Of a stretch of 33,355 nucleotides of DNA, positions 2,163 to 33,211 are shown piece by piece. The notes below the pieces were generated by a model. That model was not told the DNA's origin. It saw nothing but the letters and a program-made list of their open reading frames with translations, and ran no database searches. The first letter of the stretch is position 1. Every line of letters begins with the position of its first letter. The DNA comes from Desulfuromonas sp. CSMB_57. Lineage in GTDB: Bacteria > Desulfobacterota > Desulfuromonadia > Desulfuromonadales > Syntrophotaleaceae. Location: NCBI RefSeq assembly GCF_020194955.2, contig NZ_JAFCIY020000033.1, positions 1-33,355 on the forward strand, given 5' to 3'. A program made the position numbers and the translations under genes.

Positions 2163-3743
2163 TTATTCCCGAGCGATGGAGAGAGACTTTTTGTCGACCT
2201 TGCCGGTTGGCGATTTCGGCAAAGAGGATCTGAACTCGACGTATTTCGGCACCATGAACGATTCCAGCGTTTTATTGCAATGAGCCTGAACCATGACCTC
2301 AGTCAAGAGGTAGCCGGCTCGGGGTACCACGAATGCCATGATGGCAGATCCCAGAATATCGTCAGGCACGCCGACAACCGCGGCTTCCGTCACCTCCTCC
2401 ATGGCACACAGGGCGTTTTCGATTTCCCGGGGGCTGACCCGTTCCCCCCGGGTTTTGATCAGATCGTCTTTCCGCGCCACAAAATATAGAAATCCTTCCT
2501 CGTCTTTGCGAAAGAGATCCCCGGTAAACAACAAGACTTCCTCCCGGTAACGTCCCGGTCTAAAGGTTCTAACGGTTTCTTCCGGGGCGTTCCAGTATCC
2601 CTGCATGACATGGGCGCCACGCACCACCAGTTCGCCGATCTGCTGGGGACCCACCTCTTTGCCCAGACTATCGACGATGAGAACTTCCGTATTGGGCATG
2701 GCAATGCCGACTGAGTCGGGTCGAATGTTCAACTGATCCGGAGGCAGATAGGACACCCTCTTGCATTCGGTCAATCCATACATGGAATAAATCCGTGATG
2801 CGGGAAATAACTCCTGCAATTTCCTGATATGTGCCACCGGCAGGGCGGCGCCGGTATTGGTCAGGTAGCGCAGGTTCCGGCAATCGAAACGGCCCAGATC
2901 GATTTTCAGCAGCATGGCCGCCATGGTCGGTACCAAGGGAAAACCGGTGACCTTTTCGGCAACCAGTTTTTGCATGATTTGGAAGGGATAGGTAAAGGAT
3001 TTTTCCAGTACCAGGGTGCCACCGAAATGAAAGGTCATGAGCAACTGGTAAAGACCATAATCAAAGGAGAGGGGCAGGGTGTTGAGCACGATATCGTCGT
3101 CGGTGTTTTCCAGGTAGGTGATGATGCTGTTTGCGGCGGCGATCATGTTGCCATGGGTGGAAACAACCCCCTTGGGCTCGCCTGTCGAGCCTGAGGTGTA
3201 AATAATCGCGGCCAGATCCACATCGATGACCGAAACCGGTTTTTGTGTCGAAGAGCGGGCTCCCCGCGCCATGGCCTGCTTCCCATCGCAGACCGTCGCC
3301 AGGATGTCGTGAGCGCGGATTTTGGCCAGTTCACCGGATTCGTTACGGGATGCGCTCTGAAAACAGACCATATGCTGTAATGCCGGACAGTCGGGGAGAA
3401 CATGGTCAACGATTTTCAGTCGCGAAGCCTGGGTGATGATGATTTGTGCCTGACAGTCGTTGAGGATGTAACGGAGTTTGCTTTCCTTCATGCCGGGATT
3501 GAGAAGCACGAAGACGCCCCCCGCTTTGAGAACGGCAAACAGGGAAATCACCGCCTCGGAGGAATTTTCCAGGAAAATCACCACCCGGTCCTGCCGCTGA
3601 AGGCCGTTTTCAATCAGGTAGCATGCCAGCAGATCGGCCTTTTGGTTGATTTCAGCGAAGCTCAGTCGCTCCGCTCCGCATATCAGGGCGGTTTTATCGC
3701 TGCGCAGTTGTGCCGAGCGTTCCAAAAAACGATGAACGTTCAT
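2163..3743 (-). CDS. AMP-forming acyl/aminoacyl ligase (exosortase-A-associated ligase type)
   Basis: A 526-aa ANL-superfamily adenylate-forming enzyme that would activate a carboxylate with ATP and transfer it to CoA or, here more likely, to the phosphopantetheine arm of the ACP encoded just upstream. The P-loop-like A3 motif IYTSGSTGEPKG lies at 181-192; later come YGLTEC (A5), FTGDLFRKDEEGFLYFVARKDDLIKTRG in pieces (A7/A8) and PTGKVDKK with the catalytic Lys near the C-terminus (A10). Overall similarity recalls the ligases described in exosortase A/polysaccharide loci. AGGAGG lies about 10 nt before the ATG. It is the last gene of the cassette, 32 nt after the ACP stop. The substrate cannot be told from sequence. 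Confidence 0.85.
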   Translation of the reverse strand: MNVHRFLERSAQLRSDKTALICGAERLSFAEINQKADLLACYLIENGLQRQDRVVIFLENSSEAVISLFAVLKAGGVFVLLNPGMKESKLRYILNDCQAQIIITQASRLKIVDHVLPDCPALQHMVCFQSASRNESGELAKIRAHDILATVCDGKQAMARGARSSTQKPVSVIDVDLAAIIYTSGSTGEPKGVVSTHGNMIAAANSIITYLENTDDDIVLNTLPLSFDYGLYQLLMTFHFGGTLVLEKSFTYPFQIMQKLVAEKVTGFPLVPTMAAMLLKIDLGRFDCRNLRYLTNTGAALPVAHIRKLQELFPASRIYSMYGLTECKRVSYLPPDQLNIRPDSVGIAMPNTEVLIVDSLGKEVGPQQIGELVVRGAHVMQGYWNAPEETVRTFRPGRYREEVLLFTGDLFRKDEEGFLYFVARKDDLIKTRGERVSPREIENALCAMEEVTEAAVVGVPDDILGSAIMAFVVPRAGYLLTEVMVQAHCNKTLESFMVPKYVEFRSSLPKSPTGKVDKKSLSIARE

Positions 3744-3775
3744 GCGGTTGTGTGTCCCTCCTGTGAGACCGGCTA

Positions 3776-4093
3776 TCAGCCGAGTTGCACAACGCCCTGA
3801 GATAATTCCGATGCGCCGACCTTTTTATTCAGGAAGCAGGCCGTTTTATCGATGGAGTCGAGATTGTCCGGTATCAGTTCTTCGTCGCTGATAGCTATTC
3901 CAAACTGTTTTTCCAAAAAATCAACCAACTCGAGTATGCCTGTCGAGTCGATAATGCCGCTTTCCTGGAAGGACGTTTCATCCTGCAGGCCTTCCTCGTC
4001 ACCAAACAGGAAATTGTCCACCACAAATGCCCGAATCCGGGCTCTCAGATTGCCGAGGTGTTTGGGACTGAAAAAAGGAACTTGGTCTGCCAT
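3776..4093 (-). CDS. Acyl carrier protein
   Basis: A 105-aa acidic protein with the phosphopantetheine attachment context GIIDSTGILELVDFLE. Ser50 in the DST triplet is the predicted modified residue (DSL is usual, so Thr replaces Leu). It is longer than housekeeping AcpP (about 78 aa), with an N-terminal extension of about 20 residues and a C-terminal tail, typical of specialised carrier proteins. AGGAG lies 7 nt before the ATG. It sits between the NadE-like gene (75-nt gap) and the ligase gene (32-nt gap), so the ligase is its likely loading enzyme, as in DltA/DltC-type pairs. No acyl transferase or thioesterase is present in the cassette. Confidence 0.85.
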   Translation of the reverse strand: MADQVPFFSPKHLGNLRARIRAFVVDNFLFGDEEGLQDETSFQESGIIDSTGILELVDFLEKQFGIAISDEELIPDNLDSIDKTACFLNKKVGASELSQGVVQLG

Positions 4094-4168
4094 AGGGTAA
4101 CTCCTGGGTCGGGTGGCCGAAGGGTTGGAAAAAGGGCGCCGAATTTCTGAAGGACCATTGTAACAGGG

Positions 4169-5209
4169 TTATGTCGGCAGGGGCCATGCCATGGCCGAAA
4201 GGCCGCCCCCTTTTTGCAGCCTGATTTCCGGGATATCGGAAATCAGCAATGGGGGCAGGTGCTGGTAACGTGTGGTGGCCCGCTTGGTGTCGATGTCCTG
4301 AAAGATACGCTGAATCCGGCTTTCATCAAGACCGATGACCGCGGCTACCTCGCAGGCCGGAATGGCGTGGTTCTTGGCGTAGAGGCAGAGATCCATGTGC
4401 CTCAGGGGCAGGGAAAAGTAAAATTCATCCTGTCCCTGTTCCAGGGAGAAGGTATCCGTGGTTGGTGCTCTTTGCCGGACCTCCTCAGGAATTTGCAGAT
4501 ACTCGGCCAATTGGTAGACCTGCGATTTGTAAAGATGGGCAATGGGCTTGATATCGGCGGCGCCATCTCCCTGTTTGACGAAAAAGCCCTGATCGTATTC
4601 GAGTCGGTTCGGTGTTCCGGCCACTGCAAAATGCAACCGGTCGGCATGATAGTATTCAAGCATTTTGCGGGTGCGCTGCTTGAAACTGGTGGCTGCCACA
4701 ATCTCGAGATAGGCCTGCAACGGCAGTCGGCACCTTGAAACGCGGCCGTCGGGACTCTGGGCCACAATGGAGAACAGGGTATAACCATCGGTCTGGGTGA
4801 TGTCCGGAGAAACGATTTTGGATCGCCATCCCTTTCCATATTCCGGAATCACCTGCCGTACCGCGGCCGCATAACGCGCATAAAACGAGAGGGCGTCGAG
4901 GATCGGGGTCAGGTCTTCCCGCAGGGTATTCAAACCCAGATGCCTCGCCACCAGGCCGCTCATCGCAAGAGATTCTTCCGCCGAATCCCGCTCCGGCATT
5001 TCGAGGCCTAAAACCCGGTTTGGACCCAGAGCCCTGACGGCCAATGCCGCAGTGACACTGCTGTCAATGCCGCCCGATAAGCCAACCACCAGGCCTCGAC
5101 GGCGCAATTGCTCCTTGAGCAGGGTACGGATCCCCTGGCAGATGGCTTCGGTTTCTGCCGCAACATCGATATCGAGCAACTCGGGGGAAAATTTGCGATT
5201 GGCAGTCAT
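4169..5209 (-). CDS. NadE-like PP-loop amide-forming ATP pyrophosphatase
   Basis: 346 aa. It has the PP-loop SGGIDSS at 45-51 and the downstream block expected of NH3-dependent NAD+ synthetase (VAGTPNRLEYDQGFFVKQGDG, then IKPIAHLYKSQVYQLAEYL and GQDEFYF). Adenylation of a carboxylate followed by amidation is the family reaction. It is about 70 residues longer than typical NH3-dependent NadE, with an insertion around residues 125-160, and has no nitrilase domain. Its start overlaps the asnB stop by ATGA (5206-5209), so translation is coupled to an ammonia-generating amidotransferase. It may be a paralogue repurposed for another substrate. A true housekeeping NAD synthetase role is not excluded. 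Confidence 0.75.
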   Translation of the reverse strand: MTANRKFSPELLDIDVAAETEAICQGIRTLLKEQLRRRGLVVGLSGGIDSSVTAALAVRALGPNRVLGLEMPERDSAEESLAMSGLVARHLGLNTLREDLTPILDALSFYARYAAAVRQVIPEYGKGWRSKIVSPDITQTDGYTLFSIVAQSPDGRVSRCRLPLQAYLEIVAATSFKQRTRKMLEYYHADRLHFAVAGTPNRLEYDQGFFVKQGDGAADIKPIAHLYKSQVYQLAEYLQIPEEVRQRAPTTDTFSLEQGQDEFYFSLPLRHMDLCLYAKNHAIPACEVAAVIGLDESRIQRIFQDIDTKRATTRYQHLPPLLISDIPEIRLQKGGGLSAMAWPLPT

Positions 5210-7224
5210 GGCTGTTCTCCATACTGGATGGAATCAGGTTGAAGGCCCTCTTGGCGAACCAGGCGATCCAGAACAGCCGGTTTTATGTTCATCCTGGGAA
5301 AATCTTCAATAAACAACTGGTGAGCCAGTTGCGTGGAAAGGATGCCGATCAAGGCCATATTCTGTGTTTCACTGATCAGGGCGGCATCGTCCCGACGAAA
5401 TTTCCGCAGCAGGAAAGCGACTTTGTTCGAATCGAAATATCCAAACCGCTGAAGCATTTCCGGAGCGAGCAAGTCGTGGATGTAGGATTTGCCGTGCGCG
5501 GTGCGAAATGCTTCGGCGATAGGCGCGCGATAGGGTTGTTTCACTCTTTTAGCGATGGTGGCGGGAAGCAAATGGCCAAAGGTTCGTTTTAGAATGGATT
5601 TTTCGTTGAGGCCACGAATCTTCCAATGGGCCGGCAGTCGGGCGGCAAACTCAATGACCCGGTGGTCCAGAAATGGCAAACGGATTTCCAGGGAGTGAGC
5701 CATTGCGACTCGATCGCCTTGAGAGGAAAGCAGGTAGTTGGCCAGGAAAATGTCCATTTCCAAAGCCTGGGTGCAGGAAAATAGATCCCATTGGCAAAAA
5801 TCCTCCGGCAAGGTCATGGCCAGGGTAGCAAGGCTATCGGATTCGGGCAACCTATGCTTGAAATCAGGGGCAAAAAAGGTGGTATTGCGTCGGGAATTCT
5901 CCCAGCGAATACGATGGGTAAACAGCGCATCCCGGCCGCCGCCCAAATTGCCGGCAAAGAAATGCTGCAGAAAATCCCGTCCCCTTCCGGGATTTTGAAA
6001 CACATAGGGGTAGAGCTTTTCCAACAGTCGGGGCCGTCGTTTGGAGCCGGGCTCCCGAGCCCAGAACTCTCTGATCTTGGCCTCCTTGAAGATGTTGTAT
6101 CCGCCGAATACCTCGTCCGCCCCTTCACCGGTGAGTACCACCTTGTACTGATTGTCACGGACCAGTCCGGACAGCATCCAGAGGGGAACCGGGGCCGTGC
6201 GCAGGAGCGGGGATTCGCAGTGCCAGATGACGGCCGGCAGGTTTTCAAGGATATCCTCCCGGTTGATGGCGATGCTGCGATGGTCGGTACCGAGATGGTC
6301 GACCAGTTGCTGCTGGAAGCAGGTTTCATCGAAGGCCGGCAGGTCAAAGGTCATGGAAAATGTGGTGAGGCGGTTGTCGAAAAACCGGGCAATCAGGGCT
6401 GTGGTAATAGAGGAGTCGAGCCCGCCGCTGAGGTAGGCCCCGACCGGCACGTCGGAACGCAGGCGGAGACGTACGGCATCGAGCAGCAGTTCGGCCAATT
6501 CCTGTTGGGCTTCTTCCAAACTTCCGGACCACTGCCGGTTTTCCTCGAAATGGGGCCGCACCCAGTATGGCTGCTCGCGGACTTGCCCTTTCCTGAAGGT
6601 CAGATAATGTCCGGGCCGTACCTGGCGGATGTCCTGAAACAAACAGCCGTTGCCCAAAGTGCTCCAGAATGTGAAGATTTCATCAATAGCGGCGGGGTCG
6701 ATGGCCCTGCTTACATTGGGGAGCACGAAAAGGGCTTTGGCCTCGGAGGCGAAGGCCATTTTTCCATCACAGGCGAGATAGTAAAGCGGACGGATGCCAA
6801 CCCGATCTCGAGCGAGGAACAATTCCTGTTGCCTTGCATCCCATATCGCGAATGCAAATTCTCCGTTAATTTTTTCCAAACAACGTTCCCCAAATTCTTC
6901 ATACAGGTGTAAAACAACTTCCGTATCTGTATTGGTGGTAAAATGATGACCTCTTGACAATAAATCATTCTTAAGTTCTATATAGTTGAATGTTTCGCCA
7001 TTGTAAACAATCCATAGATTCTTGTCTTCATTACTGATTGGCTGGCATCCATCTGATAATCCTATAATACTAAGGCGGGCATTTCCTATGGACATATTTG
7101 GTGAGCAAAAGGCGCCACTTTCATCCGGACCACGATATTTAATAACATTGATCATCCGTGAAATCGTATCAATGGATGTCTCAATATTATCGAAAAAATT
7201 AATGGCGCCAACAATTCCGCACAT
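5206..7224 (-). CDS. asnB: Asparagine synthase-type glutamine amidotransferase
   Basis: 672 aa. The N-terminal class II glutaminase begins MCGIVG, with Cys2 as nucleophile after Met removal; supporting residues include Arg50, the YNGETFN strand around 74-80 and Asp100. The C-terminal synthase domain has the PP-loop SGGLDSS at 266-272 and later GEGADEVFGGY. The frame is open 25 codons further upstream, but catalysis requires Cys at the N-terminus and GAGG lies about 11 nt before this ATG, so the start is set at 7224. It is longer than classical AsnB (about 550-600 aa) and resembles amidotransferases of exopolysaccharide and exosortase loci. As first gene of the cassette it would supply NH3 or transfer an amide within that pathway, rather than make free asparagine. 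The exact acceptor is unknown. Confidence 0.88.
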   Translation of the reverse strand: MCGIVGAINFFDNIETSIDTISRMINVIKYRGPDESGAFCSPNMSIGNARLSIIGLSDGCQPISNEDKNLWIVYNGETFNYIELKNDLLSRGHHFTTNTDTEVVLHLYEEFGERCLEKINGEFAFAIWDARQQELFLARDRVGIRPLYYLACDGKMAFASEAKALFVLPNVSRAIDPAAIDEIFTFWSTLGNGCLFQDIRQVRPGHYLTFRKGQVREQPYWVRPHFEENRQWSGSLEEAQQELAELLLDAVRLRLRSDVPVGAYLSGGLDSSITTALIARFFDNRLTTFSMTFDLPAFDETCFQQQLVDHLGTDHRSIAINREDILENLPAVIWHCESPLLRTAPVPLWMLSGLVRDNQYKVVLTGEGADEVFGGYNIFKEAKIREFWAREPGSKRRPRLLEKLYPYVFQNPGRGRDFLQHFFAGNLGGGRDALFTHRIRWENSRRNTTFFAPDFKHRLPESDSLATLAMTLPEDFCQWDLFSCTQALEMDIFLANYLLSSQGDRVAMAHSLEIRLPFLDHRVIEFAARLPAHWKIRGLNEKSILKRTFGHLLPATIAKRVKQPYRAPIAEAFRTAHGKSYIHDLLAPEMLQRFGYFDSNKVAFLLRKFRRDDAALISETQNMALIGILSTQLAHQLFIEDFPRMNIKPAVLDRLVRQEGLQPDSIQYGEQP

Positions 7225-7738
7225 TGGTTGGATTTCCTCTTTGATAATATGAAAAATCCACAAGCCTATAAAAAATAGGTTTGACTTGCTTAATACCATA
7301 TCGTGAAGTCTGTTGCTGTCAAGGCAGAGAGTGTCGGCCAGTGGATCGGTATGAGCGCGCTACCGCGGACGGTTTCAGGCTGTTATAGAGCTATTTTTGA
7401 AATGCCCCCGAGAGGAAATTTTTCCTCTGATGGCTGGGCTCCATGGTTGATTCCAAATATTTACGGTAAAGGTTTCGTCACGGTTGATTTTTCATCTGAA
7501 GTGGCAACAGGGGGGAGGAACACTTTTGATCAATGACTTGCGGTACCTTGCCACTGTGATTCGAGGTGTCATGCGGCAAGTTTTGTTTGGAAAAGTGCGG
7601 ACAAAGGGGTGACTTGTTGCGGGCGTGGGGCGGGGCGTGAGCCATGGCTCATGGCGCCCGTCAGGTTCCGCAGAAAGTCCGGTAGGGCTGGGAGGAAGCA
7701 GGCGGCGGTGGGGTCGGTCATGGGGGTCTCTTTTGGGG
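7225..7738. other. Intergenic region, 514 nt, with three dyad symmetries
   Basis: No supported gene. It lies between the start of the asnB cassette and the end of the lactate permease gene (both minus strand). Features: a near-perfect hairpin at 7261-7283 (CAAGCCTAT / ATAGGTTTG) inside or just before the asnB leader; AGAGGAAATTTTTCCTCT at 7411-7428; and the 14-nt palindrome TGAGCCATGGCTCA at 7638-7651, about 90 nt beyond the permease stop. None has a convincing U-tract. The first could be an operator for the cassette. Confidence 0.5.
7261..7283. promoter_or_regulatory. Hairpin/dyad upstream of asnB
   Basis: Two 9-bp arms (CAAGCCTAT and ATAGGTTTG) separated by five As, with a single G-T mismatch. 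It lies 37-59 nt upstream of the asnB start codon, where an operator or leader hairpin would act. No regulator is identifiable. Confidence 0.35.
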
Positions 7739-9436
7739 TCAGAAGGTTCCCGGGAACAACACATAACTCAGCAGCAGGCCCATAAGGCCCGCCGCCAGGC
7801 CGTACAGCAGCAAAGGTACCAGGGTGCGGCGGATGATGAGGCCTTCCATGCCGACCAGGCCGACGGTGGCCGAGGCCGCCACCACGTTATGCACGCAACT
7901 CATGTTGCCCATGGCGCCGCCCACGGCCTGCAGGGCCAGGATGATTTCCCGGCTGGCGCCGATGCCTGATGCCAGTCCGTATTGAAACTCGGCGAACATG
8001 AGGTTGGAGACGGTGCAACTGCCGGCGATGAAGGAGCCGAGGGCGCCGACATAGGCGGCGAACAATGGCCAACTGCGGCCGGCGAGATCTGCCATGAATT
8101 CGGCCATGGCCAGGGGCATGGCGCTGTAGCCCTGGTCGTTGTAACCGGACTGCTTCATGATTTCCACCAGGGCTACGGCGAACAGCATGGCGATGGTGGG
8201 ATTCTTCAGGCGTCGGAAGCTTTCGGCCCAGGCTTTGGCGACCTTGGCACGCGGTATGCGATGCAGGAAGATGGTGAGCAGGGCCACCAGCAGAAAGGGC
8301 AGGATGCCCGGCAGATAGAGGGGTTTCATGCTGAAGCTGACGGTCTCGAAACCCAGGATGCGCGGGAACTCCAAACTCCAGGCGTTCAGGCGGGCTTTGA
8401 AGGGCAGCGCATCGATGCGCGTCAGCACCAGGATGCCGGCGATGAGGATATAGGGCAGCCAGGCAAAAAACTGAGTCATGCAGGGCTTTTGCTCGGCACT
8501 GCCGGTCTCGATGAGACCCATCCAGTCATCGCCCCAGGCGGAACGCGGTGGAAAATCCCAGGTCGACGCGGGCAAAAAGAGGCCGCGTTTGGCGGCGGCG
8601 ATGACCAGGGCCAGGCCGACCAGGCCCCCCAGCAGGGACGGAAATTCCACGCCGAACAGAAAGGCGGTCAGGAGATAGGGCAGGGTGTAGGCGAAGGCGG
8701 CGAACAGGGCGAAGCGCCAGGCACCGAGACCTTCCCGCCAGGAACGGTTGCGGCCAAAGAAACGGGTCAAAAAGCAGACCACGAACAGCAGCAGACCGAA
8801 GGCCACCAGGCTGTGGATGATGGCCGCCCATTGGCCGACATGCCGGAGAAATCCGTCGAAACTGGAAAAACCCATGGGCCCTGCCGGGGCGGCCAGGCTT
8901 TGCTGCACCGGCGGTTGCAGGTTTTTGAGGCCGAACCACATGGGTGTGCCGACGGCGCCGAAAGTGACCGGCACCGAATTGAAGATCAGGCAGACGCAGA
9001 CGGCGGCGAGGGCCGGGAAGCCGAGGCCGAGCAGCAGGGGGGCGGCAATGGCCGCCGGGGTGCCGAAACCGGCGGCGCCTTCAAGGAACGCGCCGAACAT
9101 GAAGGCGATGATGATGGTCTGCACCCGTCGATCCCGGGAGATATGGAGGAAGCCCGCACTGATGGTTTCCATGGCCCCGCCGGCCTGCAGGGTGTAGAGG
9201 ATCAGGATGGCACCGAAAACGATGATCAGCACGTTGACGGCGCTGCCGAATCCGGCCAGGGTGGCGGCGGCGATGAAGGCCGGCGGCATTTTCCAGATAA
9301 GGGCGCCAAGCAGCGCGCACAGGGCCCAGGCCAGAGGCATGGCCCGGGTGGCCGGCCAGCGCATCCCGACCATGAGCACCAGCACCAGGGCGATGGGGAG
9401 AAACGCGAACAGGGCCAGGGTACCTGAAGACAGCAT
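7739..9436 (-). CDS. lctP: L-lactate permease (LctP family)
   Basis: 565 aa with about a dozen hydrophobic segments and the family motif [20 protein letters not shown]; later [16 protein letters not shown] and a C-terminal block with [23 protein letters not shown], as in LctP/LldP and GlcA. It imports lactate (or glycolate) with protons across the inner membrane. The start at [12 protein letters not shown] is preferred to an ATG 29 codons upstream because the extra residues are non-hydrophobic, and AAAGGA lies about 11 nt before this ATG. No lactate dehydrogenase genes (LldEFG/LUD) are adjacent. A chemoreceptor gene lies upstream in the same direction, 139 nt away. Lactate as electron donor fits an anaerobic respirer. 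Confidence 0.92.
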
Positions 9437-9499
9437 TTTCACTCGTCCTTTAGGAAGGCGCCAGGTAGCGGGATAATGAATCAGGGGGTTGACGGCAGC

Positions 9500-19686: not shown

Positions 19687-20292
19687 ATGGACGGATATTT
19701 TTCTCCGTCGAAAGCTCTGATTTCCGTGGATTCCCCTAAGCCTTTCCCCTGGAAAGCCCTGGCCGAACTGGTCAAGGTCTTCTTTCATATCGGCCTGTTT
19801 TCCATCGGCGGCGGGTACGTCATGCTGCCGCTGATGGAACGGGAACTGGTGCAGGTCCGACGCTGGCTGACGGCGCGGGAGATGGCCAATTACTACGCCA
19901 TCGGTCAGGCGACCCCCGGCGTCATCGCCATCAACACCGCGACCTTTGTCGGTTATCGGCAGGCGGGGGTGGTGGGCGGAATCTTCGCCACCCTGGGCAT
20001 GGTGCTGCCGTCCCTGATCTGCATTGTGGCGATTGCCGGGCTGTTTCAGCAATTTGAACACCTGCTCTGGGTGCAGCAGGCATTTCGCGGTATCCGGGTG
20101 ACGGTGGCGGTGCTGCTGGTGGTGACGCTGGGGCGCATGATCCGGGCCCTGCACCCGACGGTGGGTCGCATGCTGCTGGTGGCGGTCAGCTTTGTCGCCA
20201 TCGCGGTTCTGCACTGGTCGCCCATCTGGATTGTCCTGGCGGCGCTATGCCTCGGCCTGTTCCTGGCCTGGTATCGGGAGGGGGCGGCGTGA
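19687..20292 (+). CDS. Chromate transporter, N-terminal-type half (short-chain CHR)
   Basis: 201 aa. It has the CHR signature FFHIGLFSIGGGYVMLPLMERE and the internal IGQATPGVIAINTATFVGY block, with about five hydrophobic segments. Short-chain CHR proteins work as two subunits that together equal one full-length ChrA; the partner is encoded immediately downstream with overlapping codons. The role is anion (chromate/sulfate) movement across the inner membrane. The ATG at 19687 has no clear ribosome site; a GTG 13 codons later is an alternative. The long structured leader upstream may control it. Confidence 0.85.
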   Translation: MDGYFSPSKALISVDSPKPFPWKALAELVKVFFHIGLFSIGGGYVMLPLMERELVQVRRWLTAREMANYYAIGQATPGVIAINTATFVGYRQAGVVGGIFATLGMVLPSLICIVAIAGLFQQFEHLLWVQQAFRGIRVTVAVLLVVTLGRMIRALHPTVGRMLLVAVSFVAIAVLHWSPIWIVLAALCLGLFLAWYREGAA

Positions 20293-20837
20293 TTTATCTG
20301 CAATTGTTCGTCGTCTTTTTTCGGGTCGGACTGTTTTCCATCGGCGGCGGTCTGGCGGCCATGCCCCTGCTGCAGGTCGAACTGTCCCGGGTCGGTTGGG
20401 TCGGCCACCAGGAATTCATCGACATGCTGGCCGTGTCCCAGGCGACGCCGGGGTCCATCGGCATCAACATGGCCACCTACGCCGGCTACAAGACCGCATC
20501 CGTGGGGGGCGCCGTGGTCGCCACCGCCGGCATGGTGGCGCCGTCCCTGATCATCATTCTGCTCATTGCCCGTTTTCTCAAGCATTATCAGCATATGTCC
20601 GGAGTTCGGCACGCCCTCGGCGTGCTGCGGGCGGTGAGTGCCGGGATGATTGCCGCCGTAACCTGGTTTATTCTGGCGGAAGCGCTGGGGGGCAGTGGGT
20701 CGACCGGCCTGCCGCTGCCGGTCGATGTAAAAGCCATTGGAATGTTTATGGTTTTTCTGGCAGCCTACTGGAAGACCAACGGCAATCCGGTATTGTTTAT
20801 CCTTGCCGGGGGATTGGCGGGTATGGCGGTGTTTTGA
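20289..20837 (+). CDS. Chromate transporter, C-terminal-type half (short-chain CHR)
   Basis: 182 aa beginning at GTG, which overlaps the previous stop as GTGA. It carries FFRVGLFSIGGGLAAMPLLQ and the SQATPGSIGINMATYAGY block, the second CHR repeat, with five or six hydrophobic segments. The GTG is preferred to an ATG 14 codons upstream because the extra residues would lie inside the preceding gene and add no hydrophobic helix. It must function with the first subunit. Its transcript ends at the strong terminator at 20847-20891. Confidence 0.85.
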   Translation: MIYLQLFVVFFRVGLFSIGGGLAAMPLLQVELSRVGWVGHQEFIDMLAVSQATPGSIGINMATYAGYKTASVGGAVVATAGMVAPSLIIILLIARFLKHYQHMSGVRHALGVLRAVSAGMIAAVTWFILAEALGGSGSTGLPLPVDVKAIGMFMVFLAAYWKTNGNPVLFILAGGLAGMAVF

Positions 20838-20904: not shown

Positions 20905-22143
20905 TCACACAGCTCTGAGCAGGTAATCGGGCACGCTGCCGAATGCCAAATCGCCCAAGGGGAGCTGCTGGATGATGGCTGCAGCGTAAAGACCGGCCTG
21001 ACTGATGTCGCCCCACAGGATGGCCGCCTTGAGGACGCCATTCGAGTCCGTGTAGCAGACCTTGCTGCACAGACGGTTGCGGCTGTCCGTATGTTCGCAA
21101 AGCTCCTTGCGCCAGGCGGGATCCGGTTCGAAGACGGGCCCCAAAGACACCAGGGGTGTACCGCACAGTACCGCCGAGGTTTTCAGTCCGGTATGAGCCT
21201 CGAGGGTCGTGCTGCCGCCGCTCATGTTGAGGCCGGCCACCCGACCCTGGCGGCGTGCCGCCGGCCAGATGGCACTGGGCATGACCCGGCCCATGGTGCT
21301 GTCGCAGCTTTCGGTGACATCTCCGGCGGCGAAGATATCCGGTACACTGGTGCGACCACCGGCATCGACCACGATGCCGCGGCGGCCGATGGTCCCCAGA
21401 CCGGCGAACAGGTCGGTATTGGCCCGTACCCCGGCGGCGCAGACCACCAGATCGGCGGGCAGGGCGCGTCCCGATTTGAGGACCACCGCCCGGGGTTGGC
21501 CGGCCCTGTCCCGCTCCACGGCGGCCACGGAATCCCGGCAGAACATGGCCATGCCGTGGTCGGACATCACATCGCGCAGACGCGCGCCGATGGTCATCTC
21601 CAGTTGCAGGGGCAGGGGGTGAGGTGCCATTTCCACCATGCTTACCGAGGGATGGCCGCCGGCCGCCAGGGTTTCCGCCAACTCGCAACCGACCAACCCG
21701 GCGCCGATGATCACCACATGGCGACTCTTACCCACCCGCTGCAAAATTCCCTGAGCATCTTCCAGATTGCGCAAGCCGAACACCCCGGAGCCCCGAACTC
21801 CTTCAATGGGCGGCGTCAGGCTGCCGGCGCCGGTAGCCAGCAGCAGGCGGTCGTAGGGCAGGCTATCACCGTTGCGGCAGCTTACTTCCTTGCGCAACGG
21901 GTCGATGGCCACAACGTCCCAGCCCAGGCGAACCTCCACGCCATGGCGCTGTGCCCAATCTTCGGGCACGAAGCTGGTCTTGGCCGCAGGACGTACCCCG
22001 CCGGCCACCAGGTGCAGCTGACAGCGGGAGTAAAATGTGGCATCCCGGGTCAGGATGGTGATCTCCGCATGCGGCTGATTGGCGCGGATTGCTTCCGCCG
22101 CCGCCGTGCCGGCGGCGCTGTTGCCGATTATCAGGTGTCTCAT
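20905..22143 (-). CDS. NAD(P)/FAD-dependent oxidoreductase of the CODH module (FNOR)
   Basis: 412 aa, a two-dinucleotide-fold flavoprotein related to rubredoxin reductase and NADH oxidase. FAD-binding IIGNSAAGTAAAEAI at the N-terminus, FYSRCQLHLVAG, NAD-binding VIIGAGLVGCELAETL (about 144-159) and DIFAAGDVTE are all visible. In the CooS-CooF-FNOR arrangement known from several deltaproteobacteria it is thought to pass electrons from the CooF ferredoxin to NAD(P)+. Its start overlaps the CooF stop as ATGA, behind GGGAGG. The third gene of the operon, it ends facing the chromate transporter terminator. NADPH versus NADH use cannot be read from sequence. Confidence 0.88.
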   Translation of the reverse strand: MRHLIIGNSAAGTAAAEAIRANQPHAEITILTRDATFYSRCQLHLVAGGVRPAAKTSFVPEDWAQRHGVEVRLGWDVVAIDPLRKEVSCRNGDSLPYDRLLLATGAGSLTPPIEGVRGSGVFGLRNLEDAQGILQRVGKSRHVVIIGAGLVGCELAETLAAGGHPSVSMVEMAPHPLPLQLEMTIGARLRDVMSDHGMAMFCRDSVAAVERDRAGQPRAVVLKSGRALPADLVVCAAGVRANTDLFAGLGTIGRRGIVVDAGGRTSVPDIFAAGDVTESCDSTMGRVMPSAIWPAARRQGRVAGLNMSGGSTTLEAHTGLKTSAVLCGTPLVSLGPVFEPDPAWRKELCEHTDSRNRLCSKVCYTDSNGVLKAAILWGDISQAGLYAAAIIQQLPLGDLAFGSVPDYLLRAV

Positions 22144-22643
22144 CCGCAGGCCTCCCGTGGTTGGGGCGGGTTGACATAGACCACGCCATCGTCCTGTCCG
22201 GCCTCTTCACCCAGGGTCAGACAGGCGGTGGGACAGGTTTCGACGCAGGCCGGAAAGGTCCGGTCACTGCAGCCGTCGCATTTGACCATCACGCGGTCGC
22301 CGGCCGTAGCGGGGCGGGCGGCGCCGAAGGGGCAACTCATCACGCACATGAAACAGCCGACGCAGGTTTCCGCATCGCAGACGACAAAGTCCTGCTCGTT
22401 GCGGCTCAGGGCGCCGCTCATGCAAGCCTGCAGGCACTGCGCCTCCCGGCAATGGCGGCAATGTTCCGGGAACAGCCGGCCGCCGGAAGTAAGCTCGATT
22501 TTGCAGCGGGCGCGGACTGCCGCCATGCCACCCTCCCGGTAAGCCTGGTGGAGGTTTTCGTCCGGGCTGTGAACCACCATGCAGGCCAGTTCGCAGTTCT
22601 TGCAGCCGACGCATTTTTCGCAGTCGATGATCTTCCGTTTCAT
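22140..22643 (-). CDS. cooF: CooF-like 4Fe-4S electron-transfer protein
   Basis: 167 aa with four cysteine clusters: CEKCVGCKNCELAC at the N-terminus, then CRHCREAQCLQAC, CVGCFMCVMSCPFG and CDGCSDRTFPACVETCP. This is the four-[4Fe-4S] ferredoxin arrangement of CooF and of DmsB/HycB-type subunits. It would take electrons from CooS and hand them to the flavoprotein encoded next. The ATG at 22643 overlaps the CooS stop (ATGA), and G-rich GGGGGTGG lies upstream; longer frames into cooS are not meaningful. Codon overlaps on both sides show tight coupling and probably equal synthesis of the three proteins. Confidence 0.9.
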   Translation of the reverse strand: MKRKIIDCEKCVGCKNCELACMVVHSPDENLHQAYREGGMAAVRARCKIELTSGGRLFPEHCRHCREAQCLQACMSGALSRNEQDFVVCDAETCVGCFMCVMSCPFGAARPATAGDRVMVKCDGCSDRTFPACVETCPTACLTLGEEAGQDDGVVYVNPPQPREACG

Positions 22644-24532
22644 GCCGCCACCCCCAAGGCCTGCAGTTTGTCGCGGATAATCCCTTCCATCAGCTCCGCC
22701 GTTTTTACCGGATCGGCTTCGATGAACAACCGGCCGCCGGTCAGGTTGGGCAAATCCTCGGTGAGGACCTTGGTGATCAGCGGCGAGCCGGTTACCGGCG
22801 GCGCCTGGGCCAGGTGCAGGGTCAGCCCCAGAGCCAGGCCGAAACAACCGTCCGCCAGAGCCTGTTCCTCCAGCCACTGGGGCGCGCTGATCACCACCGG
22901 CAGCTGCGGCAGGGAGACCCCCATGGTTTCGGCCAGGGCCTTGGCCACCATCTCGATGCGACCGATACTCAGGCAGGGGCCGAAATTGAGCACCGGGGGA
23001 ATGCCCAGAGCTTCGCAGACCCCTTTCAGGCCGGGGCCGGCCCAGTCCTTGGCCGACGGGGAACAGAAGCCGCAGTTGGCCAAGCCGCCGGTGGTGCAGC
23101 CGGCGGAGAGTACCAGGATGTCGCGCTGGATCAGCTCGCGGGTCAGGTTGACGGTCATTACGTCGTGACCGCCTTCGGCCAGATTGGAACAGCCCAGGAC
23201 CGCCGCCACGCCTTTGATGCGGCCGCCGGCCACCAGGTCGACCAGGGGCTGCAGGGAGCCGCCGAGGAATTGGACCAGGGACTTTTCGCTGACGCCGGTG
23301 ACCACGTCCTGGTGGCCGTGCCGGGGCAGGTCGATCCGGATCTTTTCGGACCCCGGAGCACGGCGCTGCCGGTACTGATCGGCGGCCATCCGCGTCAGTT
23401 TTTGCGCCAGTTCCCGCTCCTGCCCCGGGATGTCCGCCAGCAGTTCCGAACTGGTCAGCTTGGCGACATCATCCAGGCACACCAGTTTGATCTGCTTGGC
23501 TTCGGCGATGGGTTCGATGCCCGACAGGGTGCAGTTGAATTCGCTGATGACCATGTCGACGGCGCCGGTGGCGAGCAGGGCTTCCTGGGTGAAGTTGTTG
23601 CCGGCCTGGCCGGAGAAAATTTCCGTGCCGCTGGCCCCGGCCCGCAATTGCATGTCCTGACCGACGCAGGTCATGCCGACGATGCGCACCCCTTTGGCGC
23701 CGGCCGCCCGGCCCACATCCTGCCCGGCAGCCGTTTCCAGATAGGCGATGAGGCCGGCGAAAACCGAATGGCTGTGGCCGCTGACGGCGATATTGACGTA
23801 ATCGGGATCGGCGACGGAGAAACCGGTGGCTGCGATGCGGATTTCCGGCTCGCCCATGATGACGTCGTTCATGAGGTTGGTCATGGTCAGGCCGTACAGG
23901 CCGGTGGAGATGCCGAGGTTGAGACAGTGCAGCAGTTGGTCGATGGGGTCGGTATTGAGGTTGGTGCTGGTCTTGACCAGAGCGTCGAATACCTCGGCCT
24001 TGGCGCCACCCGGGAAGATGCCGAGCCGGTTCCAGGTGTCGAGGCGCTCCTGGGGCACCAGGAATTGTACCAGTTCCATCTTTTCATGACGCGGTTTGTA
24101 GAGGTCGGCCAATACTCCATCGGCGACCAACCTGGCCTTTTCCTCGGTGGTGTTGGCTTCGATACCGAGCATGGCGGCCAGTTGATCCAGGGACTGTTTG
24201 GAACGGATGGGCACAGGTGAGATGCCTTCGCCGATGGCCTTCAGGCGGCGCGCGGTTGCTTCGCAGACGTGCAGGTAGCAGCCGGCACCGGCGGTGACCA
24301 TGCGGAGAAAGTTGCGGGCGACAATGCCGTCGGCGGTGGCGCCGCACACCCCCTTGGGGGAGTCGGGCGTGATGCGGCAGGGACCGTTGGAACACAGGCG
24401 GCAACAGACCCCCAATTGAGCGAAACCGCACTTGACCTGTTGCTCGGCAAAGCGATCGAAGGCGGTATTGATATCGGTTCGGCTTTCCAGGTAGTGGGAC
24501 AGACAGGTGTCGGCGGACTTGCAGTGTGGCAT
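22640..24532 (-). CDS. cooS: Anaerobic Ni-CO dehydrogenase catalytic subunit, divergent clade
   Basis: 630 aa. D-cluster Cys35/Cys43 and B-cluster Cys44/47/52/63 are present (KCGFAQLGVCCRLC, then GPCRI and GVCG). C-cluster ligands are all found: His253 (SGHSHS), Cys289, Cys334, Cys448 (GCSN), Cys479 (AGCTT) and Cys520 (GPCLS). By comparison with remembered Carboxydothermus CODH-II, the catalytic Lys of the HEKA motif is Gln557 (EEQA), and the GHSGHAKH proton-relay segment is replaced by CYLHVCEA (85-92). So cluster assembly is expected but catalysis may differ. The start is at MPHCK because GGAGGG lies about 8 nt upstream; a frame 17 codons longer has no such site. No cooC is adjacent. A TTGACA (24631-24626) and AT palindrome (24607-24616) lie upstream. 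Confidence 0.92.
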   Translation of the reverse strand: MPHCKSADTCLSHYLESRTDINTAFDRFAEQQVKCGFAQLGVCCRLCSNGPCRITPDSPKGVCGATADGIVARNFLRMVTAGAGCYLHVCEATARRLKAIGEGISPVPIRSKQSLDQLAAMLGIEANTTEEKARLVADGVLADLYKPRHEKMELVQFLVPQERLDTWNRLGIFPGGAKAEVFDALVKTSTNLNTDPIDQLLHCLNLGISTGLYGLTMTNLMNDVIMGEPEIRIAATGFSVADPDYVNIAVSGHSHSVFAGLIAYLETAAGQDVGRAAGAKGVRIVGMTCVGQDMQLRAGASGTEIFSGQAGNNFTQEALLATGAVDMVISEFNCTLSGIEPIAEAKQIKLVCLDDVAKLTSSELLADIPGQERELAQKLTRMAADQYRQRRAPGSEKIRIDLPRHGHQDVVTGVSEKSLVQFLGGSLQPLVDLVAGGRIKGVAAVLGCSNLAEGGHDVMTVNLTRELIQRDILVLSAGCTTGGLANCGFCSPSAKDWAGPGLKGVCEALGIPPVLNFGPCLSIGRIEMVAKALAETMGVSLPQLPVVISAPQWLEEQALADGCFGLALGLTLHLAQAPPVTGSPLITKVLTEDLPNLTGGRLFIEADPVKTAELMEGIIRDKLQALGVAA

Positions 24533-25784: not shown

Positions 25785-25916
25785 GGGGATGTTTTCTCCT
25801 TGAATGGGTTCTGTTTTCACTCGAAGCGGAAGACACCGTCACGTTGACAAGGTTCAATCCTGGGTTAGGCTATGAAAATTGCCAACCTGGAAACGCTTTC
25901 GAAAAGGGGATTGCTC

Positions 25917-26408
25917 ATGGATATGTTAAAAGTATACCAGTATGCATTGCAGCGGGAGTATGAGGGGAAACGCTTTTTTGAGGAGAACGCCGGACGATTG
26001 AGCCATGCCGCAGCCGTTGGTGCGTTCAAGAACCTGGCCAAGGAGGAGCAGAAGCATATCGATTTCATTCAGAATCAGATCGAACAGATCAAGCAGGGCA
26101 TCCCGCCCAGCCTGGCCCTGGGCAAGGATCTGGAAAACGAAGGATTTTTCTCCCAGCGGGCGGCCACCGAAGCGCTGGACAGCACGGTGCTCGAGTCCAT
26201 GGTGCCGGACCTGCCCGTATTGCGCATGGCCTATCTCATCGAACGGGATTTTGCCGAGTTTTACGAGAAAGCCGCCGACCGGGCCGAGGGAGAAGCTAAA
26301 GAGGCCCTGAAGATGCTGGCCAACTGGGAGCGCAGTCACGAAAGCCTGTTCAGGCAATATCATGACAAAGCTTTCGAGGAATACGCCGGGATGCCTTGGG
26401 GCGGCTGA
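25917..26408 (+). CDS. Ferritin-like domain protein (rubrerythrin-type four-helix bundle)
   Basis: 163 aa, almost wholly helical. Two ExxH motifs (KEEQKHIDFI and NWERSHESLF) and further Glu residues in REYEGKRFFEE and ERDFAEFYEKA match the di-iron site of rubrerythrin-type ferritin-like proteins. There is no rubredoxin domain at either end, so an external electron donor is needed. Likely roles are peroxide reduction or iron handling in an anaerobe. The ATG at 25917 is chosen because AGGGGA lies about 7 nt before it; the frame is open 15 codons further. A strong hairpin follows the stop. Confidence 0.88.
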   Translation: MDMLKVYQYALQREYEGKRFFEENAGRLSHAAAVGAFKNLAKEEQKHIDFIQNQIEQIKQGIPPSLALGKDLENEGFFSQRAATEALDSTVLESMVPDLPVLRMAYLIERDFAEFYEKAADRAEGEAKEALKMLANWERSHESLFRQYHDKAFEEYAGMPWGG

Positions 26409-31801: not shown

Positions 31802-33211
31802 ATGACACCAAAACAGGTAATGGAGTTTGTCAAAGAGAAGAACATCCAGATGGTGGACTACAAGTTTCTGGATTTCATCGGCGTTTGGCAGCATGTGACT
31901 GTACCCGTCTGCGAACTGAGCGAGGACACCTTTGAAGACGGTCTGGGCTTCGATGGATCTTCGATTCGCGGTTGGCAGCCGATTCACAACAGCGACATGG
32001 CCATCGTTCCGGATCCGGCCACGGCCAAACTCGATCCTTTCATCAAGGTTCCGACCCTGAGCCTGATCTGCAACATCTTTGACCCCATCACCAAAGAAGG
32101 TTATACCCGCGATCCGCGCTTCATCGCCCAGAAAGCCGAAGCCTACCTGAAGTCCACCGGTATCGGCGATACCGTTTTCTTTGGCCCGGAACCGGAATTC
32201 TTCATCTTCGACGACGTGCGTTTCGATTCCAGCTGCAACCAGTCCTTCTACAGCGTCGACTCCAGCGAAGGTATCTGGAACTCCGGCCGTGAAGAGTTCC
32301 CCAACCTGGGCTACAAGCCGCGCCACAAGGAAGGCTACTTCCCCTGCGCGCCGACGGACTCCCTGGTCGATCTGCGCAATGAAATGGTCCAGGTCTGCCA
32401 GAGCGTCGGCATGCACATCGAAGCGGCCCACCACGAAGTGGCCACCGGCGGCCAGTGCGAAATCGACTTCAAATTCGACTCCCTGGTCAACACCGGCGAC
32501 ACCCTGCAGTGGTTCAAGTACATCATCAAGAACGTGGCGGTACGCAACGGCAAGACCGTCACCTTCATGCCCAAGCCCCTGTTCGGCGACAACGGCAGCG
32601 GTATGCACTGCCATGTCTCCATCTGGAAGGACGGCGCCAACACCTTCGCCGGTGACGGCTATGCCGGACTGTCCAAGACCGCCATGTACTTCATCGGCGG
32701 CATCATGAAGCATGCCAAGGCCCTGTGCGCCTTCACGAATCCCAGCACCAACTCCTACAAGCGCCTGGTGCCGGGCTACGAAGCGCCGGTCAACCTGGCC
32801 TACTCCAGCCGCAACCGCTCGGCGGCCCTGCGTATTCCCCAGGCTTCAAGCCCGAAAGGGAAGCGGGTTGAGTACCGTACGCCTGACCCGTCCAGCAACG
32901 GCTACCTGTGCATGTCCGCCATCCTCATGGCCGGTCTCGACGGCATCGAGAACAAGATCGATCCGGGTCAGCCTCTGGACAAGGATATCTACGGTCTGCC
33001 GCCGGAAGAACTGGCGACCATTCCGAGCGTCGCCGGGAGCCTGGAAGAAGCCCTCGCTTGCCTCAAGGAAGACCACGCCTTCCTGCTCAAGGGCGATGTG
33101 TTCACGGAAGACGTCATCGACAAGTGGATTCGCTACAAAACCGAATCCGAGGTCGATCCGGTCCGCATGCGTCCGGTGCCCCTGGAATTCGCTCTCTACT
33201 ACGACTGCTAA
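31802..33211 (+). CDS. glnA: Glutamine synthetase type I
   Basis: 469 aa, the size of the E. coli enzyme. Visible signatures are FDGSSIRGW near the N-terminus, [10 protein letters not shown], the ATP-site region [18 protein letters not shown] and NRSAALRIP. Tyr397 in [10 protein letters not shown] is the adenylylation site, so the enzyme is expected to be regulated by GlnE under P-II control. It makes glutamine from glutamate, NH3 and ATP. GAGGAG lies about 8 nt before the ATG. It shares the sigma-54 transcript with glnB and ends at a strong terminator. Codon use in its second half is notably C-rich at third positions, typical of a highly expressed gene. Confidence 0.97.

Follow-up and report, generated by a model that had tools for sequence, protein, structure and literature searches.

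Positions 1 to 33,355 of contig NZ_JAFCIY020000033.1 from Desulfuromonas sp. CSMB_57, a stretch of 33,355 nucleotides referred to here as the window, carry a gene, cooS, for the catalytic subunit of a nickel carbon monoxide dehydrogenase (Ni-CODH) with an altered set of acid-base residues. Judged by its residues, operon and tree position, the product is a clade C monofunctional Ni-CODH, a member of a little-studied bacterial branch that has already been described at clade level. Two genes follow cooS on the same strand, each overlapping the preceding stop codon in the motif ATGA, and by these overlaps the three look like a single operon. The names CooC, CooF and FNOR are used here as assigned by domain and similarity matches.

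22640..24532, minus strand: cooS, clade C Ni-CODH catalytic subunit, 630 aa (TIGR01702 profile, alignment, trees)
22140..22643, minus strand: cooF-like polyferredoxin, 167 aa (Fer4 domains; ATGA overlap with the cooS stop)
20905..22143, minus strand: FNOR, FAD/NAD(P) pyridine nucleotide-disulphide oxidoreductase, 412 aa (Pyr_redox_2, 190.7 bits; ATGA overlap with the cooF stop)

Canonical ligands and acid-base residues

CooS reaches 733.7 bits against TIGR01702, the profile of the Ni-CODH catalytic subunit (cut-off 478), and 26.3 bits against the hybrid cluster protein (HCP) profile TIGR01703, below its cut-off of 360.8. The ligands of the D-cluster (C35, C43) and B-cluster (C44, C47, C52, C63) are intact, all six canonical C-cluster ligands are kept (H253, C289, C334, C448, C479, C520), and C35-x7-C43-C44 conforms to the type II D-cluster pattern Cys-(X)7-13-Cys-Cys. 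A sequence-only reading of the window had held that every metal ligand is kept. This stands for the 12 canonical ligands of the D-, B- and C-clusters, but not for a non-canonical ligand, Cys301 of the D. vulgaris enzyme (DvCODH), whose column is occupied by Thr288.

Positions were compared through a column map validated on DvCODH His266, Cys301, Cys302, Cys340, Cys519 and Lys556 (PMC6168284) and on His259, Glu295, Asn337, Cys338, Cys449, Cys480, Cys521 and Glu556 of CooS-V from C. hydrogenoformans (PMC9311411), each found at its expected column. The CODH-II numbers (His93, His96, Lys563, Ile567) were carried over by motif, CODH-II itself lying outside the alignment. The CooS of T. kivui, TKV_c08080 (Jain 2021, PMC8683389), was also compared. 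The codons at issue are as follows.

24275..24277, minus strand: Tyr86, column of DvCODH His97, the acid-base His (CODH-II His93)
24266..24268, minus strand: Val89, column of DvCODH His100 (CODH-II His96); His in T. kivui
23669..23671, minus strand: Thr288, column of DvCODH Cys301 (non-canonical cluster ligand, Ni incorporation)
23534..23536, minus strand: Asn333, column of CooS-V Asn337; Gln in other CODHs
22868..22870, minus strand: Glu555, column of CooS-V Glu556 and HCP Glu494 (hybrid-cluster iron ligand)
22862..22864, minus strand: Gln557, column of DvCODH Lys556, the acid-base Lys (CODH-II Lys563)
22850..22852, minus strand: Asp561, column of DvCODH Ile560 (CODH-II Ile567 by motif)

The catalytic bases proposed for CODH are Lys556 and the His of the active site (PMC6168284). 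The sequence-only reading had aligned the HEKA segment with EEQA, and GHSGHAKH around His93 with CYLHVCEA, so that both bases appeared to be gone. The alignment bears this out: Gln557 takes the place of the Lys, Tyr86 stands in the His93 column and Val89 in the His96 column. Residues were counted in 39 clade C, 23 clade D-1 and 35 other (His/Lys) sequences, after removal of four truncated loci (L069, L070, L073, L074) and five same-genome duplicates (L034-L037, L056). Positions 555-557 and 561 are X in L064, and 333-334 fall in a gap in L055. Column 86 is Tyr in 39/39 clade C sequences and His in all 35 that are neither C nor D-1. Column 557 is Gln in 38/38 readable clade C sequences (one X) and Lys in those same 35, while the His96 column holds Val or Ile in all 39 clade C sequences compared, the window protein included. 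Where CooS has Y86, Q557 and T288, the ordinary acid-base CODHs of clades E and F have His, Lys and a Cys301-equivalent.

The 41 named loci were found with the patterns CVGQDMQ and [KR]TDINTAF, which biases the columns that these patterns cover (18-25 and 289-295); columns 86, 288, 333 and 555-561 lie outside them. As a check free of this bias, a protein search of 398 genomes gave 93 matching at 1e-110, and loci were taken from the 30 best of the 93. All 18 clade C loci among these 30, three of which repeat earlier genomes, have Y, T, N, E, E, Q and D at columns 86, 288, 333, 555, 556, 557 and 561.

Since these residues are fixed across clade C and nonsynonymous divergence is low relative to synonymous (dN 0.07-0.13, dS 0.71-0.89, window cooS against six orthologues), Tyr86 and Gln557 are not chance substitutions. 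The same evidence led us to reject gene decay. Absent catalytic residues and a second, intact CODH in the genome might suggest a decaying copy, but strong purifying selection, residues fixed alike in bacteria and archaea and an intact operon make this reading very hard to credit.

The two extra cysteines singled out by the sequence-only reading, Cys85 and Cys90, are both present, but they are not equivalent: Cys85 is common to 37/39 clade C sequences, whereas Cys90 is confined to the window protein and its six close orthologues (7/39). Cys90 was rejected as a new cluster ligand for this reason, while Cys85 may be one. AlphaFold2 modelling of 29 window and locus sequences gave a mean pLDDT (predicted local distance difference test score) of 92.0 and a single helix at residues 67-101. 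Being two residues on in the predicted helix, His88 would face away from the side bearing Tyr86 and Val89 (i, i+3). A replacement Lys or His from the same helix was rejected by helix geometry alone, and one could still be supplied by another part of the protein. Proximity of residues to the cluster is taken from published work.

Clade C placement and genomic setting

Clade C was defined by a complete C-cluster with Tyr for the His and Gln for the Lys, with FNOR and CooF as neighbours in C-1 and C-2 (Inoue 2019, Table 2, PMC6344411). CooS resembles C-1 and C-2 in its six C-cluster ligands, its Tyr/Gln pair, its type II D-cluster and its CooF and FNOR neighbours. The two N-terminal Cys that mark C-1 have counterparts in C4 and C10, but C10 is not fixed among the orthologues. 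In a marine survey, too, clade C lies next to FNOR and CooF, with a role that the authors call unclear (PMC13240472). The sequence-only reading had called for placement in a CODH tree. In a tree of 71 proteins with the ten diagnostic columns removed, CooS falls with support 100 within a clade of 35 that includes T. kivui CooS and stands apart from D-1, D-2-like, D-3/4-like and His/Lys CODHs. The same placement came from an earlier tree that kept all columns and left out T. kivui and D-2 to D-4. T. kivui CooS and a near twin form the deepest branch of the clade C group, as in Bohm and Land 2026, who place it as early-branching in clade C (PMC13056359). The trees were made by 'quick' searches, are unrooted and carry SH-aLRT (Shimodaira-Hasegawa-like approximate likelihood ratio test) support only, and the labels D-2 and D-3/4 were assigned in this analysis by Inoue's signatures. 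Because residue signature, operon and tree agree, the window cooS is taken as a member of the clade C already described.

CooF and FNOR lie downstream of cooS in 25 of the 41 named loci, one of which, L037, has an FNOR match of only 40 residues (7414-7533); the FNOR gene there may be diverged, replaced or broken. The other 16 have no CooF/FNOR match, and some of these have little DNA after cooS (e.g. L061, L062, L063). A gene 80-88% identical to the window cooS occurs in six of 277 genomes searched, five from the same family and G197 from the same class only. In G197, a Geobacteraceae metagenome-assembled genome (MAG; L009 / L036), the 81% identical gene set sits on a 14.8 kb contig with coverage 3.0, a case of horizontal transfer or of a mis-binned contig. 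The closest named records are Pelobacter sp. UBA5610 (88%) and a Desulfuromonadales MAG (81%), followed by Lentisphaeria and relatives (69-72%) and by mostly Bacillota and Methanomassiliicoccales (48-59%). Next to the close orthologues in identity come the clade C genes of Lentisphaeria and relatives (L038-L042), which occur with CooF and FNOR; this suggests transfer between phyla. Archaeal MAGs, mostly Methanomassiliicoccales relatives (L058-L060, L062, L063, L068, L069, L071-L073), have a clade C cooS and no CooF/FNOR match in their flanks, some of which are short.

An Rrf2-type regulator gene is matched upstream of cooS in 24 of the 41 named loci (confirmed by Pfam Rrf2 for one, L034, at 4528-4953) and adjoins cooS in all six close orthologues. 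Unlike these, the window operon has none beside it, and the best match elsewhere in the genome is 38% identical. In its place, beyond 24532, lies a divergent GNAT-like gene. Because the Rrf2-type gene occupies that place in the orthologues, the DNA upstream of the operon is not comparable with theirs.

The genome encodes one other CODH that scores above the family cut-off, and its His, Lys and metal ligands are all in place. Its cluster (G000:C50:33000-48000, about 2863-9454; L075) comprises cooS2 of the His/Lys type, a CooC-like ATPase, a CooF-like match and an FNOR-like gene, with a CbiM-type metal transporter gene close by and, 5' of cooS2, a LytTR-domain regulator that is possibly a CO sensor. 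The genome holds one HCP above cut-off and no match to acetyl-CoA synthase (PF03598). A plasmid search returned two distant CODHs of about 29-30% identity. Elsewhere in the window are two successive chromate-transporter domain genes (19687-20837), a rubrerythrin-like protein gene (25872-26408) and a glutamine synthetase gene (31802-33211).

Pocket residues shared with clade D

In DvCODH, Cys301 is described as 'strictly conserved in CODHs', is a ligand of the oxidised cluster and is linked to Ni incorporation; the C301S variant has neither Ni nor activity, and the corresponding mutant of the M. thermoacetica enzyme is likewise inactive (PMC6168284). Its column is Cys in 35/35 of the other His/Lys CODHs, but Thr in 39/39 clade C and Ile in 23/23 D-1 sequences. 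In clade D-like CODHs (L156-L167, L121, L126, L127, L131, L078-L099) the Cys301-equivalent is replaced by Met, Val or Ile. No report that it is absent from clades C and D was found in the open papers, a search that left paywalled work and supplements outside and in which PMC6168284 was the one CODH paper to deal with this residue.

Three further columns follow the same division. Column 333 is Asn in 38/38 clade C and 23/23 D-1 sequences versus Gln in 35/35 others, column 555 is Glu in 38/38 readable clade C and 23/23 D-1 sequences versus none of the 35 others, and column 561 is Asp in 37/38 clade C (one Asn) and 23/23 D-1 sequences versus Ile in 34/35 others (one Ala). The D-2-like (4 loci) and D-3/4-like (12 loci) sequences have the same residues at 333, 555 and 561, Val and Met at 288, and keep C289. 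The clade C and D sequences have in common that they lack a Cys301-equivalent, have an Asn before the second cluster Cys and a Glu two positions ahead of the Lys site, and carry a carboxylate where other CODHs have the pocket Ile.

In a Foldseek search with the structural model, the nearest chains are those of CooS-V (TM-score 0.95, root-mean-square deviation 1.8-1.9 A), followed by the Thermococcus and D. vulgaris CODHs (TM-score 0.90-0.93). DvCODH, CODH-IV and the Thermococcus CODH, of clades E and F, share the fold and the B-, D- and C-cluster ligands, but differ in having His, Lys, the Cys301-equivalent and Ile at the four columns changed here. CooS-V, of clade D-1, agrees with CooS at columns 86 (Tyr), 333 (Asn), 555 (Glu) and 561 (Asp); its Glu556 binds Fe3 of a hybrid cluster and corresponds to HCP Glu494 (PMC9311411). 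Unlike CooS, it has Glu for Cys295, keeps a Lys (558), has a [2Fe-2S] D-cluster and shows no detected CO activity (PMC9311411).

These likenesses raise the alternative that the cluster in the pocket lacks Ni, being iron-sulphur-oxo or of some other kind, and that Glu555 binds its iron in the manner of the CooS-V and HCP glutamates. The physiological reaction would then be the reduction of hydroxylamine, NO or a different small molecule, with NAD(P)H as the source and FNOR and CooF as the route. The residues shared with CooS-V, its standing as the closest solved fold, the absent Cys301, the upstream Rrf2-type genes in 24/41 related loci (Pfam check for one) and the finding, cited by Inoue et al. 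(PMC6344411), that exposure to oxygen up-regulates a C-1 gene cluster in C. ljungdahlii would all accord with this alternative. However, the change held responsible for the hybrid cluster is Cys295 to Glu (PMC9311411), found in 23/23 D-1 sequences, and CooS keeps the cysteine as C289; T. kivui CooS, moreover, oxidises CO with the same residues. We regard the alternative as unlikely. The Glu two residues before the Lys site, a D-1 mark, is present as E555, and Inoue et al., in the text consulted, note the Glu of the hybrid cluster for D-1 only (PMC6344411). Assignment of CooS to the D-1/CooS-V type was rejected on Cys289. The analogy with hydroxylamine-type activity drawn by the sequence-only reading suits clade D-1 (CooS-V), where Cys295 is changed to Glu; the window CooS keeps this cysteine as C289.

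Clades C and D might share one remodelled pocket. With its full C-cluster ligand set in such a hybrid-type pocket, clade C would be a chimera, combining a CO-oxidising cluster, Ni uptake without Cys301 (or function without Ni), a Glu capable of binding iron and proton transfer by carboxylates in place of Lys and His. We put this forward tentatively, as a speculative extension. Among the open papers no usable mutant study at Lys563, His93 or Ile567 was found; PDB titles list the CODH-II variants H93A, K563A, K563H, H96D, I567A/L/T and C295D.

CO oxidation within clade C

The activity of clade C can be approached through T. kivui CooS. A published cooS primer matched 2 of 37 genomes of one class, and the gene-matching parts of six published cooS primers match one of these two, G1068, identified as the source of T. 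kivui cooS. The protein is identical to the window CooS at Y86, H88, T288, C289, N333, E555, E556, Q557 and D561, and in both a cooF gene adjoins. The two differ in that overall identity is 48%, His stands at the His96 column and Arg replaces Glu91; the T. kivui locus has cooF1 downstream, a gene of unknown function upstream and no FNOR (PMC8683389). Purified with CooF1, the enzyme oxidised CO with methyl viologen (MV) at 13.9 U/mg and with ferredoxin (Fd) at 0.5 U/mg, with a Km(CO) of 5 uM; AcsAB, for comparison, gave 213.9 (CO:MV) and 111.5 U/mg (CO:Fd), and Jain et al. quote 160 U/mg for D. vulgaris and 660 U/mg for R. rubrum (PMC8683389). In CO-grown extracts of CO-adapted T. kivui, deletion of cooS lowered CO:MV activity from 178.6 to 14.9 U/mg, with 76.9 U/mg on complementation, and sustained growth on CO requires the gene (PMC8683389).

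Because T. kivui CooS oxidises CO with the same residues, loss of the His and Lys, and of Cys301, does not exclude CO oxidation. A clade C enzyme without Lys563 and His93 can oxidise CO, at rates below those of D. vulgaris and R. rubrum, and the missing residues mark the clade C branch and are not by themselves proof of a different enzyme. The inference of the sequence-only reading that CooS may not be a straightforward CO oxidiser thus holds in part: the His/Lys pair and Cys301 are absent and columns 86, 333, 555 and 561 match CooS-V, but the T. kivui enzyme is active.

From these comparisons, the window CooS is probably a monofunctional Ni-CODH of clade C, in Inoue's group C-1 or C-2, served by a dedicated electron line from CooS through CooF and FNOR to NAD(P). 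By analogy with T. kivui CooS, we infer that it would interconvert CO and CO2 more slowly than ordinary CODHs. Without Lys563 and His93, iron-bound water and the metallocarboxylate may pass their protons to the carboxylates Glu555 and Asp561, or alternatively along Tyr86 and ordered water, and such rerouting would cost rate. Working beside the genome's ordinary CODH, the enzyme would likely scavenge CO at low flux or balance redox state through NAD(P)H. In C. autoethanogenum, Liew et al. 2016 (PMC4895105) found that an acsA knock-out released 2.03 mmol CO, and they suggest that CO2 was reduced by the monofunctional CODHs.

Several observations weigh against this assignment. T. kivui CooS is only 48% identical, lies on the deepest branch and keeps His where the window CooS has Val; no Ni content for it was found in the accessible part of Jain 2021 (PMC8683389). 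Glucose-grown T. kivui extracts show no drop in CO:MV activity after cooS deletion (PMC8683389), another CO-adapted isolate down-regulates cooS and cooF1 on CO (PMC12056078), and the C. autoethanogenum acsA knock-out showed no CO oxidation (PMC4895105). One CooC-like query matched none of the 41 named loci in their flanking DNA (E 1e-8), and against this genome it matched only itself. Finally, Bohm and Land 2026 regard the activity of clade C as undecided (PMC13056359), a reserve that they base on the CO-adapted state of the T. kivui strain.

Bohm and Land also offer, for clades C and D, the idea of a redox or CO sensor or regulator of carbon flow that is not a bulk catalyst. On H2 + CO2, knock-out strains of C. 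autoethanogenum and T. kivui grow better or form more acetate (PMC4895105, PMC8683389), and clade C often co-occurs with clade E (PMC13056359), a second CODH being present in this genome too. For the window CooS we consider the idea quite improbable, given that sustained growth of T. kivui on CO needs the gene, which there carries most of the extract activity.

The preferred reading, a slow clade C Ni-CODH, bears on the doubt of Bohm and Land, in that the T. kivui cooS of the genome examined has the clade C residues and the purified enzyme was produced from a plasmid in strain DSM 2030 (PMC8683389). The clade C sequences examined lack all three of Lys, His and Cys301, yet T. kivui CooS, the sole purified member found in the accessible literature, is active. 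A single clade C enzyme therefore poses two questions: which groups do the acid-base work, and how Ni is inserted without Cys301. The point of most interest is the pocket shared by clades C and D, and in particular that Cys301 is missing from a clade of which one member is active on CO; the chemistry of clade C thereby becomes a concrete question of metal content and mutagenesis.

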